DNA from: Telluribacter humicola
GTDB taxonomy: Bacteria; Bacteroidota; Bacteroidia; Cytophagales; Spirosomataceae
Direction of reading: 5' to 3'
DNA: 64,000 nucleotides
Assembly: GCF_017355935.1 (NCBI RefSeq)
Contig: NZ_JAFIQT010000006.1
Location: 62,001-126,000, forward strand
Shown here: piece by piece, positions 1,773-55,793 of the stretch
How the letters are laid out: every line of letters starts with the position of its first letter
How positions within the stretch are numbered: the first letter of the stretch is position 1
Position numbers and translations under genes: made by a program
Notes under the pieces: generated by a model
What the model was told of the DNA's origin: nothing
What the model saw: the letters and a program-made list of their open reading frames with translations, nothing else
The model's database searches: none

Positions 1773-1805
1773 AAACGGGGACCTACTAAGGTCCCCGTTT
1801 TTATT
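1773..1805. terminator. Bidirectional terminator between convergent genes
   Basis: A perfect 12-bp stem (1773-1784 with 1789-1800, arms AAACGGGGACCT/AGGTCCCCGTTT) with a 4-nt loop is followed by a T-run on the plus strand and an A-run before it. It ends the ABC-F transcript and, on the minus strand, lies directly past the TAA stop of the CHU_C protein at 1801-1803. Confidence 0.9.
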
Positions 1806-3255
1806 TTAGAAGTAGTATAGTGCCGGTTTTCTGGTAGTCTTTACCCCTGGCATCCTTATACCGGATCAGGTACGTGTAGTGTCCGGGGGGGAGAGGCGTT
1901 CCTTTACTACTTCCGTCCCAGACCATAGCCGGATTGGTGGTATGATATAGTACACTTCCCCACTGGTTGAATATCGATAGTCTAAAATCAGCGGGTAGTT
2001 CACCTTTAATCTCGAAGTAGTCATTGATCCCATCATTATTCGGGCTAAAAGCCTCGGGAATATATAAGGGAGAGGAAGTACTACAGAAGGTAAGGGGAGT
2101 TTTGCGGCAATGGATAGGAGATGTACTTACAGTGGAAGCCGTAGTGATGCGTAACTGATAACAGTGCTCTGTGTTACAGCTTAGTTCAGCATCATTCAGC
2201 TGATTAGATGTTCCCAGGGCAGAAATATCTTTCCAGCTCTTCCCATCTTTCCAAAGCTCTATCTTCATTGTAGGTCCGGCTTGCTCTGTATGCCAGGCAA
2301 GTCCATTTCCTTCCGGCTGATCAGTAAGTGTCAAGGTGGCTGTACATGCCACTTCTGATTGATACAAGCCCGCCAGGCACGCATCCGAGGTTTCCAGACG
2401 AAAGCACGCGGACTGAGACGAATATTGAGGCACAGTTACCCGACCTGTTGCCTCCTGAGTCCGCAGTCCAGTGGGCTCAAATGTACCATCCTGGGCCTGT
2501 TTCATAACCAGGAGTTCCAGGGCCAGTGGATTCTCCGTAACAAGCTCTACCTGATTAGAAGGGGTAGATGTTAGTTCGCGGATTTGGGGCTTGGCGGAAG
2601 GTGGTTCGGGTTTGTATTCTATAAAAGCAGTACTTCCTTTACAGGTACCTAGCCTTTGTACTCCCCACACGGCTATGGTATGAGGTGTTGTGTTATCTAA
2701 GTAGCCATGATTGGTAGCTCTGAGATGTACTGGTACTTCTGAAATAGTACCATCTCCCCAGTCCACCCAGTAGGTATGGTAGCTGGAGGGTTGTTTGGCA
2801 TCAAAAGTCACCTTTATGGTACCATCCTGACAGGTGATCAACTTTACCTTCGGGGGGAGCGTATCATTAACTACTACTCTGGAGCAGCCGATCAATTTGA
2901 CACCCTCTTTTTCCGATAGTTGTACAAGGGTATAAGTACCCGGTTTGGTATAGGTATGAATAGAATCAGTTTTCAGGCTATCAGGGTGCAAAGGGCCACC
3001 GAGGTAGTTAAAGATTGTCCGGATGTTGGTTGCTCCATCCAGGGTAGGCCGGGCTTTGATGGTACGAGGCAGGCATTCTTCAATATCTATAACAGCCGTA
3101 GTACCCGTACCATAGCTATACAGGTCGGGAATCGAAGTAGGGCACTGGGCCACACAAAAAGACATTCCTAAACAAAGTGCAGACCATGTATAACCAGCTA
3201 TTGCGAGTAATCGTAATAGAATCCACTTTATATCTATTTGTAACCTTGCCGTCAC
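1801..3255 (-). CDS. Secreted T9SS cargo-like protein with CHU_C C-terminal domain
   Basis: An exported surface or extracellular protein of unknown specific role. It starts with a hydrophobic signal-peptide-like segment (about residues 10-36, ending near CVAQC). The middle contains PKD/Ig-like beta segments, for example 'WVDWGDGT' near residue 183. The last 86 residues (399-484) are a gliding-motility-associated C-terminal domain: 'AFSPNNDGINDYF', then 'IFNQWGSVLY' and 'WDGSSKGTPLPPGHYTY'. This domain class directs export by the type IX secretion system. The start is GTG at 3253-3255; a near-consensus -7 element (one mismatch) lies at 3285-3292. No enzymatic domain is recognised, so adhesion or a structural role is possible but unproven. 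It stands alone between two terminators. Confidence 0.8.
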   Translation of the reverse strand: MTARLQIDIKWILLRLLAIAGYTWSALCLGMSFCVAQCPTSIPDLYSYGTGTTAVIDIEECLPRTIKARPTLDGATNIRTIFNYLGGPLHPDSLKTDSIHTYTKPGTYTLVQLSEKEGVKLIGCSRVVVNDTLPPKVKLITCQDGTIKVTFDAKQPSSYHTYWVDWGDGTISEVPVHLRATNHGYLDNTTPHTIAVWGVQRLGTCKGSTAFIEYKPEPPSAKPQIRELTSTPSNQVELVTENPLALELLVMKQAQDGTFEPTGLRTQEATGRVTVPQYSSQSACFRLETSDACLAGLYQSEVACTATLTLTDQPEGNGLAWHTEQAGPTMKIELWKDGKSWKDISALGTSNQLNDAELSCNTEHCYQLRITTASTVSTSPIHCRKTPLTFCSTSSPLYIPEAFSPNNDGINDYFEIKGELPADFRLSIFNQWGSVLYHTTNPAMVWDGSSKGTPLPPGHYTYLIRYKDARGKDYQKTGTILLLK

Positions 3256-18677: not shown

Positions 18678-19415
18678 ATGTGTTATCACAATTCCTTAGT
18701 TTCCACACCCGATGAACTGGCTAAAAGATACAAGGCAGAGGTAGCTGCTGTGCCAGATTACCAACCTACTTATCATACCAGTGGTTTTGATTTTAGAAAG
18801 TGGCCTATCCTGACCTCGGAACGGCCGGATCAGTTTCAGTACCTGCAGTGGGGCCTATTGCCGCACTGGGTCAAAGATGCTTCCAAAGCACGCCAGCTGC
18901 AAAGTAGTACCCTGAACGCCAGGTGCGAGTCTATCCACGAAAAGCCGGCTTACCGGGAGTCGTATCGGAGAGCTAGGCGTTGCCTTATTCCTTCCACCGG
19001 TTTTTTTGAATGGCAGAAGGTAGGGAAGAAGAAGTACCCTTACTACGTATCACTGACTACTACAAAGATCTTTTCGATGGCCGGGCTGTGGGATGAGTGG
19101 CCAGATAAGGAAACGGGGGAGATAATACAGACCTATACCATGATTACTATTCCGGCCAATCCGCTCATGGCTCGTATCCATAATACCAAAGTGCGAATGC
19201 CCGCCATACTTACCCCAGAAAACGAGAGGAGGTGGCTAAGTCAGGATACCCGGGAAGAAGAGCTTAAAGAGATCTTACAGCCTATTTCGGACACTGTCAT
19301 GCAAGCTTACACTGTTAGCCCGCTGGTAACATCCCATTCTGACGATAGTAATACAAAGGCAGTTATAGAGTCTTACTCATACCCGGAGCTTACCCAGCAG
19401 CAGTCGTTATTCTAG
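18678..19415 (+). CDS. SOS response-associated peptidase (SRAP/HMCES/YedK)
   Basis: Protects abasic sites in single-stranded DNA by forming a covalent thiazolidine link through Cys2. The protein begins Met-Cys2 as required, so the ATG at 18678 is well supported. The conserved 'TLNARCESIHEKPAYRES', the catalytic-Glu segment 'IPSTGFFEW' and the His/Arg segment 'RIHNTKVRMPAIL' are all present. At 245 aa it is typical. It follows ppk1 closely and ends before a strong terminator. Confidence 0.94.
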   Translation: MCYHNSLVSTPDELAKRYKAEVAAVPDYQPTYHTSGFDFRKWPILTSERPDQFQYLQWGLLPHWVKDASKARQLQSSTLNARCESIHEKPAYRESYRRARRCLIPSTGFFEWQKVGKKKYPYYVSLTTTKIFSMAGLWDEWPDKETGEIIQTYTMITIPANPLMARIHNTKVRMPAILTPENERRWLSQDTREEELKEILQPISDTVMQAYTVSPLVTSHSDDSNTKAVIESYSYPELTQQQSLF

Positions 19416-19437
19416 GCTGAAAATATCTATACATGCA

Positions 19438-19476
19438 AAAGGGCAGGAAACTAATACGCTTTCCTGCCCTTTTTTA
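19438..19476. terminator. Bidirectional terminator after the SRAP gene
   Basis: A perfect 13-bp stem (19438-19450 with 19460-19472, AAAGGGCAGGAAA/TTTCCTGCCCTTT) with a 9-nt loop and T-run; A-run on the other side serves the convergent ROK gene. Confidence 0.9.
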
Positions 19477-19492
19477 TAAGGTTAACAGTGTT

Positions 19493-20419
19493 CTACTTGA
19501 AAGTAAGCATGGCTGCACCGAATACACCGGCTGAGTCACCCAGCTTAGGCCGCAGGATGGGTGTTTCGAAGCTATGGTTAAAGACATACTTTTCGGCGCG
19601 CTTAGGTCCCTCTGTATAGAGGAGGTCAATATTGCCTACACCACCGCCCAGTACGATTGCATCGGGGTCCAGAATATTCACAATTACAGTGATAGCCTGA
19701 CCAAATCCTTCAAGTAGGCGGTCTATCGTCGCTGTAGCGTGCGGATCGTTACCTTCGTGGTATCTTTCCACGATCTGAGGGAGTTTGAGCGCAGTACCGC
19801 TTCTTTCCTGGTAGAATCGCTGTAAGGCAGGACCGGACAATACCTGCTCTACGCAGCCCTGCTTGCCACAGTAGCAGTCGTAACCGCCCGGCTCCAGTAC
19901 ATTATGGCCCCACTCGCCGCCAATCCCCTGCATACCGTTCAGCACAAATGGCTGCCCGTCATTTCCACGGAGTACTATACCCCCTCCAACGCCGGTGCCC
20001 ATAATCACACCGAACACTGATCTAAAGTTGGGAGCCACATCTTTAACCCCACCCATTAAAGCCTCGGCCAGAGCGAAGCAATTGGCGTCGTTGGCAATGG
20101 AAATAGGCATACCCAACTTGGTTTCAAGATCCCTATGCATGGGCATACCGTTGAGTGAAGTAGTATTACAGCCCTTCATAGTCTGACGGGCCGGATCTAC
20201 CGTACCGGGTGTACCAATACCAAGTACATCGGGCTTGGAGCCGGTTTCGGCCTTCATAATATCAACTAATGTAGCGATACGGCCAATAATATGCTCATAG
20301 CCTTTATATGACTCAGTGTCAATGCGGTGTCGGAATATAACCGCATCGGGCGATGGACTTGATAATATAACCCCTTCTACTTTGGTACCTCCCAAGTCAA
20401 TTCCCCAGTAAGTTTGCAT
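19493..20419 (-). CDS. ROK family sugar kinase
   Basis: Phosphorylates a hexose or amino sugar with ATP; glucokinase or fructokinase are the likeliest options but specificity is not readable. The ATP-binding start 'WGIDLGGTKVEGVIL' opens the protein, the ROK zinc motif is 'CYCGKQGCVEQ' (about residues 187-197) with 'GGEWGHN' before it, and 'IGTPGTVDP' and 'GTGVGGGIVL' follow the family. No helix-turn-helix is fused, so it is a kinase rather than a NagC/XylR-type repressor. Divergent from the broken peroxiredoxin gene. Confidence 0.91.
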   Translation of the reverse strand: MQTYWGIDLGGTKVEGVILSSPSPDAVIFRHRIDTESYKGYEHIIGRIATLVDIMKAETGSKPDVLGIGTPGTVDPARQTMKGCNTTSLNGMPMHRDLETKLGMPISIANDANCFALAEALMGGVKDVAPNFRSVFGVIMGTGVGGGIVLRGNDGQPFVLNGMQGIGGEWGHNVLEPGGYDCYCGKQGCVEQVLSGPALQRFYQERSGTALKLPQIVERYHEGNDPHATATIDRLLEGFGQAITVIVNILDPDAIVLGGGVGNIDLLYTEGPKRAEKYVFNHSFETPILRPKLGDSAGVFGAAMLTFK

Positions 20420-20536
20420 ATGTGTAGTAGTTCAGAAAAGAAAATGAAATCAGTCAGTCATAAACCATAGCCCGGTAGGGCTGGTTCTTGCATATAAACT
20501 TACGAATCATACCCAAAACACAAAAACATTTCTGTA

Positions 20537-21004
20537 ATGGCGATCAAAAAGGGCGACAAGGCTCCCTCCTTCACACTTTACAACACAAATAAAAAAGAAG
20601 TAACACTGGAAGATTTCCGTGGCAGGAATCTGATCATTCATTTCTTTCCACTCGCTTTTACCGGTACCTGTACTACTCAGTTATGTACCATGCGGGATAA
20701 TCTCTCAATCTATCAAAACCTGGATGCCGAAGTAGTAGGTATCTCGGTGGACTCACCCTTTGCACTGGCTCGCTACAAGGAAGATCAAAGCTATAACTTT
20801 GATTTACTTTCGGATTTCAATCGGGAGACAAGCCAGGCGTATGGGGCTTACTAAGATGAGTTCATGCTTGGGCTGAGAGGTATCTCCAAGCGGGCCGCTT
20901 TTGTAGTAGATAAAGAAGGAGTTATACAATATGTAGAAATTTTAGACGATGCCAGAGAGCTTCCAGACTTTGGTGCCCTCAAGGATACATTAGAGGCTAT
21001 GTGA
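20537..21004 (+). pseudogene. Peroxiredoxin (AhpC/TSA family) interrupted by an in-frame TAA
   Basis: Would reduce peroxides in the cytoplasm. The first 105 codons carry the redoxin fold start ('GDKAPSFTLYN'), the peroxidatic cysteine in 'PLAFTGTC' (C45) and C50 in 'QLCTMRD'. Codon 106 is TAA (20852-20854), right after 'SQAYGAY'. The same frame then continues without shift for 49 codons ('DEFMLGLRGISKRAAFVVDKEG' in two pieces, then 'PDFGALKDTLEAM') to TGA at 21002-21004, restoring the normal length of about 155 aa. Relatives usually have Tyr or Glu at this spot, so a single base change (for example TAT or TAC to TAA) explains it. No internal ATG suggests a functional second piece. It may be a true nonsense mutation, a readthrough site or a sequencing error. 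Confidence 0.85.
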
Positions 21005-21039
21005 TTGATACGTAGTGCTTTCTTGTAATTTTAGAGTCC

Positions 21040-21073
21040 TTTGCCACGCCTTATCAGTGTTAGGTGTGGCAAA
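21040..21073 (+). terminator. Hairpin after the peroxiredoxin gene
   Basis: A 12-bp stem with one G-T pair (TTTGCCACGCCT 21040-21051, AGGTGTGGCAAA 21062-21073) and a 10-nt loop, 36 nt past the final stop. There is no strong T-run. It lies between the peroxiredoxin and TetR genes. Confidence 0.55.
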
Positions 21074-21100
21074 TCAGCTTAAAAATAAAGGTTAACAGCG

Positions 21101-21131
21101 TTTGGAAAGCCCATCAGATTTTTTATATTTG
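21101..21131 (+). promoter_or_regulatory. Complete Bacteroidota promoter for the TetR gene
   Basis: TTTG (21101-21104) and TATATTTG (21124-21131) are separated by 19 nt, matching both the -33 and -7 elements of the Bacteroidota primary sigma factor. The ATG is at 21177, giving a leader of about 40 nt. This is the clearest two-part promoter I found in the window. Confidence 0.75.
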
Positions 21132-21176
21132 AAAGCAATTACTCTAATCCACCATCTAAAATACGAGAATTGCTGA

Positions 21177-21770
21177 ATGGGAATCATCGAACGCCGCGAA
21201 CGCCTCAAAAAACAGGTACGTTCTGACATTGTAAAAACGGCAAAAGAAATTGCCCGTGAAGATGGCTGGCAATCTGTCTCCATCCGTAAGATCGCCGATG
21301 TTATCGAGTACAGTCCCCCGATCCTTTATGAGTATTTTGAGAGTAAAGACAAGTTACTCGAAACGATACGTGCCGAAGGTTTTGCAGCGCTAAGAGATGA
21401 ATTTGAACGGATCAAGCACGTGTATCGTCAGCCCGAAAAACAGTTGGCTGAAATAGCGCAAGCTATATGGAACTTCTCGGTAGAGCAGCCCGAAGTGTTT
21501 CAGGTAATGTTTAACCTAGAAGGAGCCTACTGCCAGTCCAAGCAGGTATACATACAGGAGATGAATATCGTCAAGAACCCTGTATGGGAGATGATTGCGA
21601 CGCTTCGGCCCAAGTCTGGAGAAATGGTAACCAAGACATACTATGAGTGGTGGTGCCTTACTTATGGTTTTATAAGTATCACCATGACCACTCAGCCGCG
21701 CCATGCGATACCTCATGCCGAACCCATCTATATGGAAGGTGTAAGGCGATTTATTCGCAGCGTGATGTAA
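21177..21770 (+). CDS. TetR/AcrR family transcriptional regulator
   Basis: Dimeric DNA-binding repressor that responds to a small ligand. The N-terminal helix-turn-helix covers about residues 14-60 ('IVKTAKEIAREDGWQSVSI' then 'PILYEYFESKDKLLE'). The C-terminal ligand domain has no further recognisable family signature. Length (197 aa) is normal. It has its own promoter and a strong terminator, so it is monocistronic. Its target is not apparent; the neighbouring peroxiredoxin or the divergent/convergent genes carry no obvious shared palindrome. Confidence 0.9.
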   Translation: MGIIERRERLKKQVRSDIVKTAKEIAREDGWQSVSIRKIADVIEYSPPILYEYFESKDKLLETIRAEGFAALRDEFERIKHVYRQPEKQLAEIAQAIWNFSVEQPEVFQVMFNLEGAYCQSKQVYIQEMNIVKNPVWEMIATLRPKSGEMVTKTYYEWWCLTYGFISITMTTQPRHAIPHAEPIYMEGVRRFIRSVM

Positions 21771-21771
21771 C

Positions 21772-21807
21772 AAAAGGAAAGGGACGCATCAGCGTCCCTT
21801 TCCTTTT
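21772..21807. terminator. Bidirectional terminator between TetR and serine acetyltransferase genes
   Basis: A perfect 16-bp stem (21772-21787 with 21792-21807) rich in GC at its apex, with a 4-nt loop (ATCA), T-run on the plus strand and A-run on the other side. It starts 2 nt after the TetR stop and touches the stop of the convergent gene. Confidence 0.92.
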
Positions 21808-22739
21808 TATGCTATCTGTTGCTTTACCTCTACCTTGCTTTGGTGATAAACCTGCGAATAGGGCGGTACACTCTTAGTAAGCCAGGCATTACCACCAATC
21901 ACCGAATCGCGGCCAACCACGGTATTACCTCCCAGAATGGTCGCATTGGCGTAGACTACTACATTATCCTCAATAGTTGGGTGTCGCTTGTGTGAGGCCA
22001 GGGACTTAGCCACGTACGTGGCCCCCAGCGTTACCCCCTGGTATATCTTCACATTATTTCCAATATGGGTAGTTTCTCCGATTACTACACCCGTTCCGTG
22101 GTCAATAAAGAATGATTTACCAATCGTGGCACCCGGATGTATATCAATCCCTGTTTGTCCGTGTGCAAACTCAGTCAGCATGCGGGGGAGCAAGGGTACT
22201 TCACAGGTCATAAGCAGGTGCGCTATGCGGTACGATGCTATGGCCATAAAGCCAGGATAAATAGCAATAACCTCTTCGATACCTACGGAGGCAGGATCAT
22301 TGTCAGTAATAGCCTGAGCATCCAGCATCAGCAGATCATACGTATCAGGTAGCTGGGAAAAGAAGTCATACACGATATCTTCCCGACTACGCTCCAGCTG
22401 AGGATCCAATGGTTTAAGCAGGCAGTCCAGTTGCTTCTGTAATTCCTTATAAGCGCCTGGTAGTCCGGCCGGGTTATTAGATTCTTTACAATCCTGACAT
22501 ATGGGAAAAAGAAAATTAATAAGACGCTGTAAGAAATGTCCGCACTCGTGCCGTGACGGCAGACGGTAGCGATACTTGTGATTCTGGTCAGCTAAACGCT
22601 GAAAGAAAATCTCTTGCTGTTCAATAGTCATCTGGTGCTGCTGTAAAAAGAACTCAACCGATTCAGCTACTTTTTTTTGATAAACAAAGATAGTTGAGAA
22701 AAGATTGTTCAAAACTACGACTTTATCAGGTATACCCAT
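21807..22739 (-). CDS. cysE: Serine O-acetyltransferase
   Basis: Acetylates L-serine with acetyl-CoA in the first step of cysteine synthesis. The C-terminal half is a left-handed beta-helix of hexapeptide repeats, with the family sequence '[19 protein letters not shown]' and '[20 protein letters not shown]'. The N-terminal ~150 residues are helical. At 310 aa it is longer than E. coli CysE and resembles the EpsC-type form common in Bacteroidota. ATG at 22739. No cysteine synthase gene is adjacent. Confidence 0.88.
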
Positions 22740-24102: not shown

Positions 24103-26268
24103 TTAGAACAATTGACGAGCACAGCTTGGGCTTTTCAGCTTCACCAGGCTTAGTGTTTTTTCCTGATATACAGTATCAATGTTCTCCTCAGGAACAAAGC
24201 CTTTCAGCAGGGTAAGATCATCACATAGAATATAGTCGTAACAAAAGGGCTTCTGAGCGTTTTCCAGCGTGGCTAGTTCCCTCTTGTACCGGATATAATG
24301 CATTTTGCCCGGATTCTCAAATTTTTCGTTTAGTGCACTCCAGTAATGAAAAAATCCAAGCCCCTTTTCGTACAAGACCCCAATATTACTATTGTTGTCT
24401 ATATGCTTAAGCAATGGCTCAAAGCTGTAATAGTTATCAAGATGACTTAGGAAAAGGGCCTTTACCCGGTCAGTCTTAAATACAGTAGAAGACTTAACAT
24501 CATCATAGTAGCCTAGCTGGTCCAATATGTTGAAGATCTCGGCTCGTTTCTGATAACCGGGCAGTTCTTTTAAGGGATGACAATTCTCTACAGCCGGGAA
24601 CGTATAATAGTCTTCCAGGTACTTTTTATAAACTTGTTCTTCTTTTTTGTCAGTGGCACAGATGGAGATAGGTATATGGGCTATAGCCTTACGGACCAGG
24701 TAGCTAACCGGAACAATGGGTTTGTTGGGATTACCGAAGACAAAACCAACAGAAAGAAGTAGGAGAGGGACAATCAGGTATACTGTTCTCCATCTGAGGG
24801 CTTGAGTATATAGGTAAGTAACAAGTATGGCACCTACTGCAAAAAAGGGCATTTGGGTACGCGAACTCCATAACTGAAACTTGAGCAGGGTACTAAACAG
24901 TACAAAGCCTGCTACCGCGCATAGGATAAGCCATTTAATCTTCCAGCGTCCCTTGAAAAACAGCAAACCGATAATAGACAGACCAATTAACCAGAAATGA
25001 ATGGTATTCGGCATCATATCTTCATGTACTGAGTAGCGTACCGAAAACTGATCAATACTAATAGCTGGCTCATTGATATTGACGCCGATCGATTGGTGAA
25101 GGTTAGTTATTTTATCCTGGATCAACAGGTTAACTCCTGTACTGGGAATACCCATGTGCAGGCTGGCATTCTTTATAACATTGGATATGGTAAAACTAAA
25201 AGAATGTTGGTCAGCAGGAATCTTCTCTGAAAATAGCCTTGAATTAAGCGGAGGACTGAGAATATGTCCGAATAAATTATAGTTACGTAATAAAAAAGGA
25301 GTAAAAGTCAGGAGTAGTATGGCGAGAGAAAGGAGTAGGACCTTTAATGAGTATACAAAGCCATACTGGCTCAACAGACGTACTGCAAAATAAACAGTGA
25401 ATGGAATAGCAAAGATGAACACCGTGTACTTGGTAAATCCTCCTAATGAAAGTGCAGTCAAGAATGCTACCAATGTTACCACAGATCTTTTTTCGAGCAA
25501 ATCAAAGCCAAAGTACACAAAGCAGATAAAGAAATAGCAGGCAACAAGGTCTACCTGGGCACTAGTACTCTCAAAGATTCCAATTGGTAATGTAAGTAGG
25601 AAGGTAGCGGCAAGTATCTGACCGCTTGCATTTGCACCAAATCTTTTGGCCAGGAGGCTTATGGCAGCCAGAGAGCCTACATAAGAGCCGTATTGCACTA
25701 AACCTATATATCGATCCGACTCTGAAAGCAACATCGTATCCAGAGTCACGTACTCCGCAAATACATTGAGATAGAGCTGCTGGCTAAACTGAGTAGGGAA
25801 GTGGTTTAGGTTTTCATTGTCGATCCACAGTAATACCCTGGTGAGATGGTACCAATGAGCATCGTAGTTATTGGGAGGGGAGTAAACAGCTAAAAACAAT
25901 AAGGGGAGTACAAAGAACAACAGCCCTGTATATACAATTACTTTATTGGTTTTACTGATACCGTTAAGTTTGAATACCTGCTTCAGAGAAGCTAGTTCAG
26001 CAAGCTGTATTTGTTTTTTCTGATTCAGGTACAGCAGCAGTCCAGCTAGTACGAGGTTTTCAGAAGACCAGAATAGAATAGCTGATTGAGAATTCAGGGC
26101 ATTGAAAGCAGAAAAGAGTTCATTAAAAAGAACTACTACACCGCCATTCGTTATTAATGAAAGAATAAAATATCTTCTAATATTACTATATAAGCCACTG
26201 TGCTTTGATGTTAAAAAGAAGAGGAGAAAGATTAAAATGACTGATAATGGAAGTAAAAAGAAGCTCAT
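24103..26268 (-). CDS. Polytopic GT-C type glycosyltransferase-like membrane protein (GT39-like)
   Basis: A 721-residue protein with about a dozen hydrophobic segments followed by a ~190-residue soluble C-terminal part, the layout of GT-C enzymes that use polyprenyl-phosphate sugars. After a transmembrane segment it has 'PPNNYDAHWYHLTRV' (about residues 130-144), the acidic first-loop position typical of the catalytic Asp in GT-C/PMT-like folds. A second GT-C gene at 43728 has the equivalent 'PPNEWDSMTGHLNRV', so the two are related. It is the last gene of the polysaccharide locus and may add a sugar on the periplasmic side. Exact donor and acceptor are unknown. A consensus -7 element lies at 26395-26403. 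Confidence 0.7.
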   Translation of the reverse strand: MSFFLLPLSVILIFLLFFLTSKHSGLYSNIRRYFILSLITNGGVVVLFNELFSAFNALNSQSAILFWSSENLVLAGLLLYLNQKKQIQLAELASLKQVFKLNGISKTNKVIVYTGLLFFVLPLLFLAVYSPPNNYDAHWYHLTRVLLWIDNENLNHFPTQFSQQLYLNVFAEYVTLDTMLLSESDRYIGLVQYGSYVGSLAAISLLAKRFGANASGQILAATFLLTLPIGIFESTSAQVDLVACYFFICFVYFGFDLLEKRSVVTLVAFLTALSLGGFTKYTVFIFAIPFTVYFAVRLLSQYGFVYSLKVLLLSLAILLLTFTPFLLRNYNLFGHILSPPLNSRLFSEKIPADQHSFSFTISNVIKNASLHMGIPSTGVNLLIQDKITNLHQSIGVNINEPAISIDQFSVRYSVHEDMMPNTIHFWLIGLSIIGLLFFKGRWKIKWLILCAVAGFVLFSTLLKFQLWSSRTQMPFFAVGAILVTYLYTQALRWRTVYLIVPLLLLSVGFVFGNPNKPIVPVSYLVRKAIAHIPISICATDKKEEQVYKKYLEDYYTFPAVENCHPLKELPGYQKRAEIFNILDQLGYYDDVKSSTVFKTDRVKALFLSHLDNYYSFEPLLKHIDNNSNIGVLYEKGLGFFHYWSALNEKFENPGKMHYIRYKRELATLENAQKPFCYDYILCDDLTLLKGFVPEENIDTVYQEKTLSLVKLKSPSCARQLF

Positions 26269-54710: not shown

Positions 54711-55793
54711 GTGGATTTACAAGATTTAAGAAAACATATTGACTCACTTGATGACCAACTCCTCCAGCTCCTTAACGAGCGGATGGAGTTGGTCAAAAAA
54801 GTAGGAGAGCTCAAACGAGCTACCAAAACTATTATCTACCGGCCCGAGCGTGAAAAACAGATTCTGGATCGGCTGGAAAAACAAAATAAAGGGCTGCTTA
54901 GCCGTTCGGCGATCGAAGCTATCTTCCTGGAAATATTTGCGGTATCACGTAATCTTGAGCTTCCGGAGCGAATTGCCTACCTGGGTCCAGAGGGAAGCTT
55001 TACCCATCAGGCCGCCGAAAGCCGGTTTGGTGGGATGAGTGAGTACCTGGTGCTTCCAACCATCCGTTCCATCTTTGATAGTGTTGAGACAGGCCGTGCC
55101 CGATTTGGTGTAGTACCTATCGAGAATAATCAGGAAGGGGTAGTAAGTGAGACAATGGACCTGCTGCGCGAAAAGGAGCTGCTAATCGCTGCCGAGGTAC
55201 TGCTTCCGATTCACTTCTCCTTCGTATCCCAGTCAGATTCTCTGCACGATATCCGTCGAATCTACTCCAAGGATATTGCCTTCCGGCAGTGTAGTAAGTT
55301 CCTGCGGGAGTACTTTGAAGAGCTTAATGTAGAATTGATACCGGTAGAGTCTACTTCAAAGGCTGCCAAGCTGGCCGCTCAGGAGCCGGATGCCGCGGCT
55401 ATTTGTTCTCACATAGCCGCTCGGTTATTCGGTGTACCTGTACTGTTTGATAATATCGGGGATGGAGATCAGAACCGGACGCGTTTTGTGATCCTGTCTA
55501 AATCTTTTGTTAATCAGAAAAGCCAGGCCGATAAGACCACGCTCATCGCTAACTTACCCAATACCCACCGGCCTGGAGTACTTTTCGAATTTCTCAAAGA
55601 CTTCAATGATCGGGGCATTAACCTGACCAAGATAGAAAGCCGTCCCCTACGTGATGGCTCTACATTCAAGTCCTGGTTTCTGGTGGAATTTGAAGGGCAC
55701 CACGACGACCAGCCCGTGCAGGAAATTTTCCAGAAGTACGGAACGCACCTCAAGTGGCTGGGGAGCTACGTCAGGATATCAGATAGTAAATAA
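54711..55793 (+). CDS. pheA: Bifunctional chorismate mutase/prephenate dehydratase
   Basis: Carries chorismate to prephenate and on to phenylpyruvate in phenylalanine synthesis. Residues 1-85 form the AroQ-type chorismate mutase ('DLRKHIDSLDDQLLQLLNERM', 'IYRPEREKQIL' in two parts). From about 88 the prephenate dehydratase follows ('IAYLGPEGSFTHQAA', 'GVVPIENNQEGVV', 'NRTRFVIL'). An ACT domain (about 280-355, 'RPGVLFEFLKDF', 'LTKIESRP') allows feedback by phenylalanine. Start is GTG at 54711. The stop is 2 nt from the convergent ribF stop. Confidence 0.94.
   Translation: MDLQDLRKHIDSLDDQLLQLLNERMELVKKVGELKRATKTIIYRPEREKQILDRLEKQNKGLLSRSAIEAIFLEIFAVSRNLELPERIAYLGPEGSFTHQAAESRFGGMSEYLVLPTIRSIFDSVETGRARFGVVPIENNQEGVVSETMDLLREKELLIAAEVLLPIHFSFVSQSDSLHDIRRIYSKDIAFRQCSKFLREYFEELNVELIPVESTSKAAKLAAQEPDAAAICSHIAARLFGVPVLFDNIGDGDQNRTRFVILSKSFVNQKSQADKTTLIANLPNTHRPGVLFEFLKDFNDRGINLTKIESRPLRDGSTFKSWFLVEFEGHHDDQPVQEIFQKYGTHLKWLGSYVRISDSK

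Follow-up and report, generated by a model that had tools for sequence, protein, structure and literature searches.

A single in-frame TAA in a peroxiredoxin gene of Telluribacter humicola is probably a recent nonsense mutation

A peroxiredoxin gene of Telluribacter humicola is interrupted by one in-frame TAA in a frame that otherwise looks intact. The question raised by this locus is how the codon came to be there and what becomes of the gene product. An earlier note on the window (the whole stretch of 64,000 nucleotides that was analysed) had offered a nonsense mutation, stop-codon readthrough or a base-call error. All three are sound options; the evidence described below favours a young stop or an error, and readthrough is left without positive support.

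Reading frame and interrupting codon

Translation of 20537-21004 (+) yields 105 residues, TAA, 49 residues and TGA. The frame comprises 155 codons, and its sole interruption is the TAA at 20852-20854 (codon 106). There is no frameshift, and no long homopolymer is present at the TAA site. The locus has the following parts and neighbours:

19493-20419, - strand: ROK-type kinase-like gene, the divergent neighbour (named by reading the translation, not by family search)
20537..20854, + strand: 5′ part of the peroxiredoxin gene, 105 codons and the premature TAA, containing P38, T42, C45 and C50
20852..20854, + strand: in-frame TAA, codon 106 (in 49 distinct relatives: Tyr 33, other residue 16, stop 0)
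20855..21004, + strand: 3′ remnant, 49 codons and TGA, containing the conserved Arg119 and the family C-terminus
21177-21770, + strand: TetR-like regulator gene, the neighbour on the other side (likewise named from its translation, not from a family search)

The translation bears out the earlier description of a single in-frame TAA in an otherwise intact frame without frameshift. The catalytic cysteines, placed by the note in the first part, are C45 and C50, both encoded ahead of the TAA. Resumption of the frame after the TAA, with a family C-terminus and a normal total length, was also recovered: the tail aligns to the intact gene of a sister genome without gaps (50 codons), and the interrupted frame aligns with many relatives across residues 1-155, which rules out that the tail matches its relatives by chance. 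The tail differs from the sister gene by 17 synonymous and 8 non-synonymous codon differences over the 50 codons, the terminal stop counting as one of the synonymous ones. The openness of the tail is by itself weak evidence, since among all + strand stretches of 49 codons in the window 16% are likewise open.

Protein family and active-site residues

The first part of the frame matches Pfam AhpC-TSA with an E value of 1.5e-28 (99.6 bits, cut-off 26), and the intact sister protein scores 124.1 bits against the same family. The 49-residue tail has no Pfam match; it gives two weak NCBIfam peroxidase matches (1.3e-5 and 2.1e-5), which lie far under the family cut-offs. The intact sister protein itself stays under the cut-offs of all 12 NCBIfam families that it matches. 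Its best match, PRK09437 / Bcp equivalog (NF006960), reaches 107.4 bits, below the 140 needed for membership. The ancestral gene is an ordinary AhpC/TSA-type peroxiredoxin with a Cys-x4-Cys arrangement, PrxQ/AhpE-like.

The active site of peroxiredoxins is made up of Pro, Thr, Cys and Arg. We take the PxxxTxxC motif and Arg119 to be these elements in the present protein. The motif with the peroxidatic Cys (P38, T42 and C45) is shared by the present protein and all 49 distinct relatives, C50 is kept in all 49 as well, and codon 119 specifies Arg in 48 of the 48 relatives that cover this position, the remaining one ending at residue 114. A product of the 105 codons has no active-site Arg, the residue expected of a working AhpC/TSA product, as Arg119 is encoded after the TAA. 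The position of the conserved Arg119 (codon 119) beyond the TAA had been overlooked in the earlier note.

The genome keeps a Bcp/PrxQ-type paralog with an open frame, which scores 160.5 bits against the cut-off of 140. It also has an AhpC-like paralog, of which the matched stretch alone was scored, with a result below the cut-off.

The site of the stop in relatives

Telluribacter sp. SYSU D00476 (the sister), which we assume to be a soil-type Bacteroidota, was the only genus-mate compared. It has an intact ortholog, 86% identical, with Tyr at codon 106. The gene order kinase-like / peroxiredoxin / TetR-like is the same in both genomes.

For a wider set of relatives, matches of less than 45% identity or with E values higher than 1e-20 were left out, and 11 of the 60 rows were removed because their DNA duplicated that of others. 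None of the resulting 49 distinct relatives (at least 45% identity, sister included) has a stop within the matched stretch. Checking whether relatives have a sense codon at the TAA site, as the note had proposed, gave a clear answer: at codon 106, 21 relatives have TAC and 12 have TAT, and the remaining 16 have other sense codons. A panel of 150 genomes of the family gave a similar picture. Matches at or above 50% identity occur in 81 of them, with an interruption only in the present genome; by hand count, the other 80 have no stop in the match. No match of at least 50% identity was found in 69 of the 150 (some of these genomes are incomplete), which suggests that loss of the gene is tolerated and that much of the family can do without it.

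Some further differences between the two Telluribacter genomes were seen in the window. The gene at 24103-26268 (-) encodes an apparently membrane protein of 721 aa that lacks a real counterpart in the sister over the 100 kb compared, the best match being 21% identical over half of its length; the genes flanking it are conserved at 91% and 96%. The gene at 1801-3165 (-) is 64% identical to its syntenic sister counterpart, as against about 90% or more for most neighbours, and may be fast evolving or replaced. At 54783-55793 (+) the sister frame is three codons shorter (stop at codon 334 of 336), which is ordinary end variation.

Other interrupted genes

In the window 57 sister genes were matched, and an internal stop was met only in the peroxiredoxin gene (56 of 57 free). 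On the contig as a whole, matches at 60% identity or more were obtained for 289 of 317 sister ORFs, and five had a stop in the best piece; four further sister ORFs had low coverage and no stop. A second clean, isolated nonsense codon is the TAG at codon 202 of 243 in a gene at contig positions 136796-137524, 10.8 kb past the window end. The frame of this gene is otherwise intact, and its sister protein matches Pfam Dioxygenase_C. Such codons are thus not unique to the peroxiredoxin gene in this assembly. The three other cases were rejected as isolated nonsense events, judged from the appearance of the output alone: one has three stops in one frame and is probably antisense, one has two stops in a 64% match, and one has its stop at the second-last codon. 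In the reverse comparison 285 of 291 own contig ORFs were matched, and for nine of them the sister sequence contains a stop; some of these nine may be real breaks in the sister. The first such stop lies either within codons 1-38 or among the final three codons, and three of these ORFs have two or more stops. We looked for a pattern of many broken frames across the 289 shared genes of the contig and did not find it. In our judgement two isolated nonsense codons in 289 genes fit ordinary pseudogene formation, unlike poor assembly.

Selection and age of the stop

The dN/dS ratio against the sister is 0.086 before the stop and 0.088 after it. The equality of the two values indicates that the stop, if real, is young; it would be expected of a very recent event as well as of a base error. 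With respect to dN/dS the first part ranks 48th of the 53 genes of the window for which the ratio was estimated (median 0.037; three of 56 gave no dS estimate), among the faster genes and within the range. If the tail has been under no selection since the stop arose, a rough Poisson bound under a simple model limits this time to at most about a fifth (0.19) of this genome's branch.

Residue differences from the sister were polarised with the 30 of the 49 relatives that have 155 ungapped residues, the sister excepted, and were sorted by hand. In the tail six differences appear derived here and one in the sister, with one near tie; in the first part six appear derived here and six in the sister, with one tie. 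The two sets of derived counts do not differ significantly (Fisher p 0.14 one-sided, 0.17 two-sided), and the excess of changes derived here in the tail gives a non-significant hint of what may be relaxed selection. Apart from the TAA the gene carries no marks of decay.

Origin of the interrupting codon

We consider it probable that a recent single-base nonsense mutation at codon 106 turned the gene into a young pseudogene. The stop call, the intact frame and the intact relatives are observed; that the TAA base is real and that function is lost is what we infer. On this account a change of one base would have made codon 106 of an AhpC/TSA peroxiredoxin gene TAA, and translation would stop after 105 residues, ahead of Arg119 and of the last third of the chain. 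Since this conserved Arg and the last third lie beyond the stop, the truncated product is probably inactive, with loss of function. The genome would then carry a young pseudogene alongside its remaining peroxiredoxin-like genes.

It is possible, though unlikely, that the TAA is a base-call or assembly error and that in the strain 20852-20854 is a sense codon of an intact gene. Such an error would account for one substitution in a gene in which everything else is intact, and for purifying selection along the entire frame relative to the sister. The assembly is a draft in 24 contigs, and a real mutation and a wrong base look alike in sequence. The second lone nonsense codon on the contig can be counted for this reading too, as two such codons also fit base errors. 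Against it, the site lies outside any long homopolymer, and with only two clean isolated internal nonsense codons recognised among the 289 shared genes there is no general breakage of frames. The usual error rates of consensus sequences would also weigh against an error.

That the TAA is read through to give a low level of full-length peroxiredoxin is very unlikely. The frame is open and constrained after the stop, which counts in favour of readthrough, but the signal of constraint can predate a young stop and does not demonstrate it. No suppressor tRNA was detected: the UUA anticodon is absent from the 42 tRNAs found, an incomplete set that comes from scoring 150 of the 255 initial candidates and in which no Ile anticodon is named. 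The release-factor domain occurs at three places, in open frames of 361, 344 and 139 residues; we read the first two as being of RF1 and RF2 length, so two genes of full release-factor length are present. The tRNA set, the release-factor genes and the 56 of 57 stop-free window genes lead us to reject genome-wide recoding of TAA. The fold of the RNA that starts at the stop is no more stable than that of shuffled sequence (z +0.74; 152 of 200 shuffles fold at least as well), and no Rfam family reached its gathering score in 19400-22000. A recoded or read-through gene would be expected to conserve its stop, and the stop is found in none of the 49 distinct relatives and in none of the 80 other family genomes with an ortholog. 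A more elaborate version, in which low-level stress readthrough makes the TAA tolerable and yields full-length peroxiredoxin only at times of reduced ribosomal fidelity, as a translational switch on an antioxidant gene, has no evidence to support it, and we give it next to no credence.

Re-initiation at ATG 20864 (codon 110), giving a C-terminal piece of 46 residues to join the 105-residue one, is most improbable: this in-frame ATG lies four codons past the stop where the sister has GTA, but Met at codon 110 also occurs in two of 30 intact outgroup proteins, so the ATG needs no link to the stop, and we know of no split peroxiredoxin.

With a recent nonsense mutation as the preferred reading, the significance of the case is small: it is one young pseudogene with a single nonsense codon (or an error) in a gene absent from many relatives. 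The titles and abstract openings of the papers found on Telluribacter contain nothing on this gene. The locus does carry a caution, namely that readthrough does not follow from an intact flanking frame and a low dN/dS if the stop postdates the divergence that is compared.

Comparison with known systems

The intact sister protein aligns with Bcp-type structures in the PDB, namely 3hjp (E 5.4e-35, residues 4-152), 2cx3 (7.8e-34) and 2ywn (4.3e-33), and, with E about 5e-22, with the mycobacterial 1xxu and 4x0x, which we take to be AhpE. In the three alignments inspected Arg119 pairs with an Arg. 2cx3 and 2ywn have Cys at the positions aligned to C45 and C50, whereas in the 3hjp chain Ser takes the place of C45, and C50 has no Cys counterpart. 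Unlike these Bcp/PrxQ and AhpE-type peroxiredoxins, the gene described here is interrupted at codon 106.

Belinky et al. 2021 (PMC7918605) argue that many bacterial in-frame stops are under purifying selection and may be read through, and propose that readthrough is frequent. They also trace in-frame stops to annotation artifacts, sequencing errors and pseudogenes, and remove errors by using stops common to two or more species. The genes that they treat resemble the peroxiredoxin gene in having one in-frame stop in a constrained frame. They differ from it in that their stops occur in at least two species, whereas the TAA at codon 106 occurs in one genome only.
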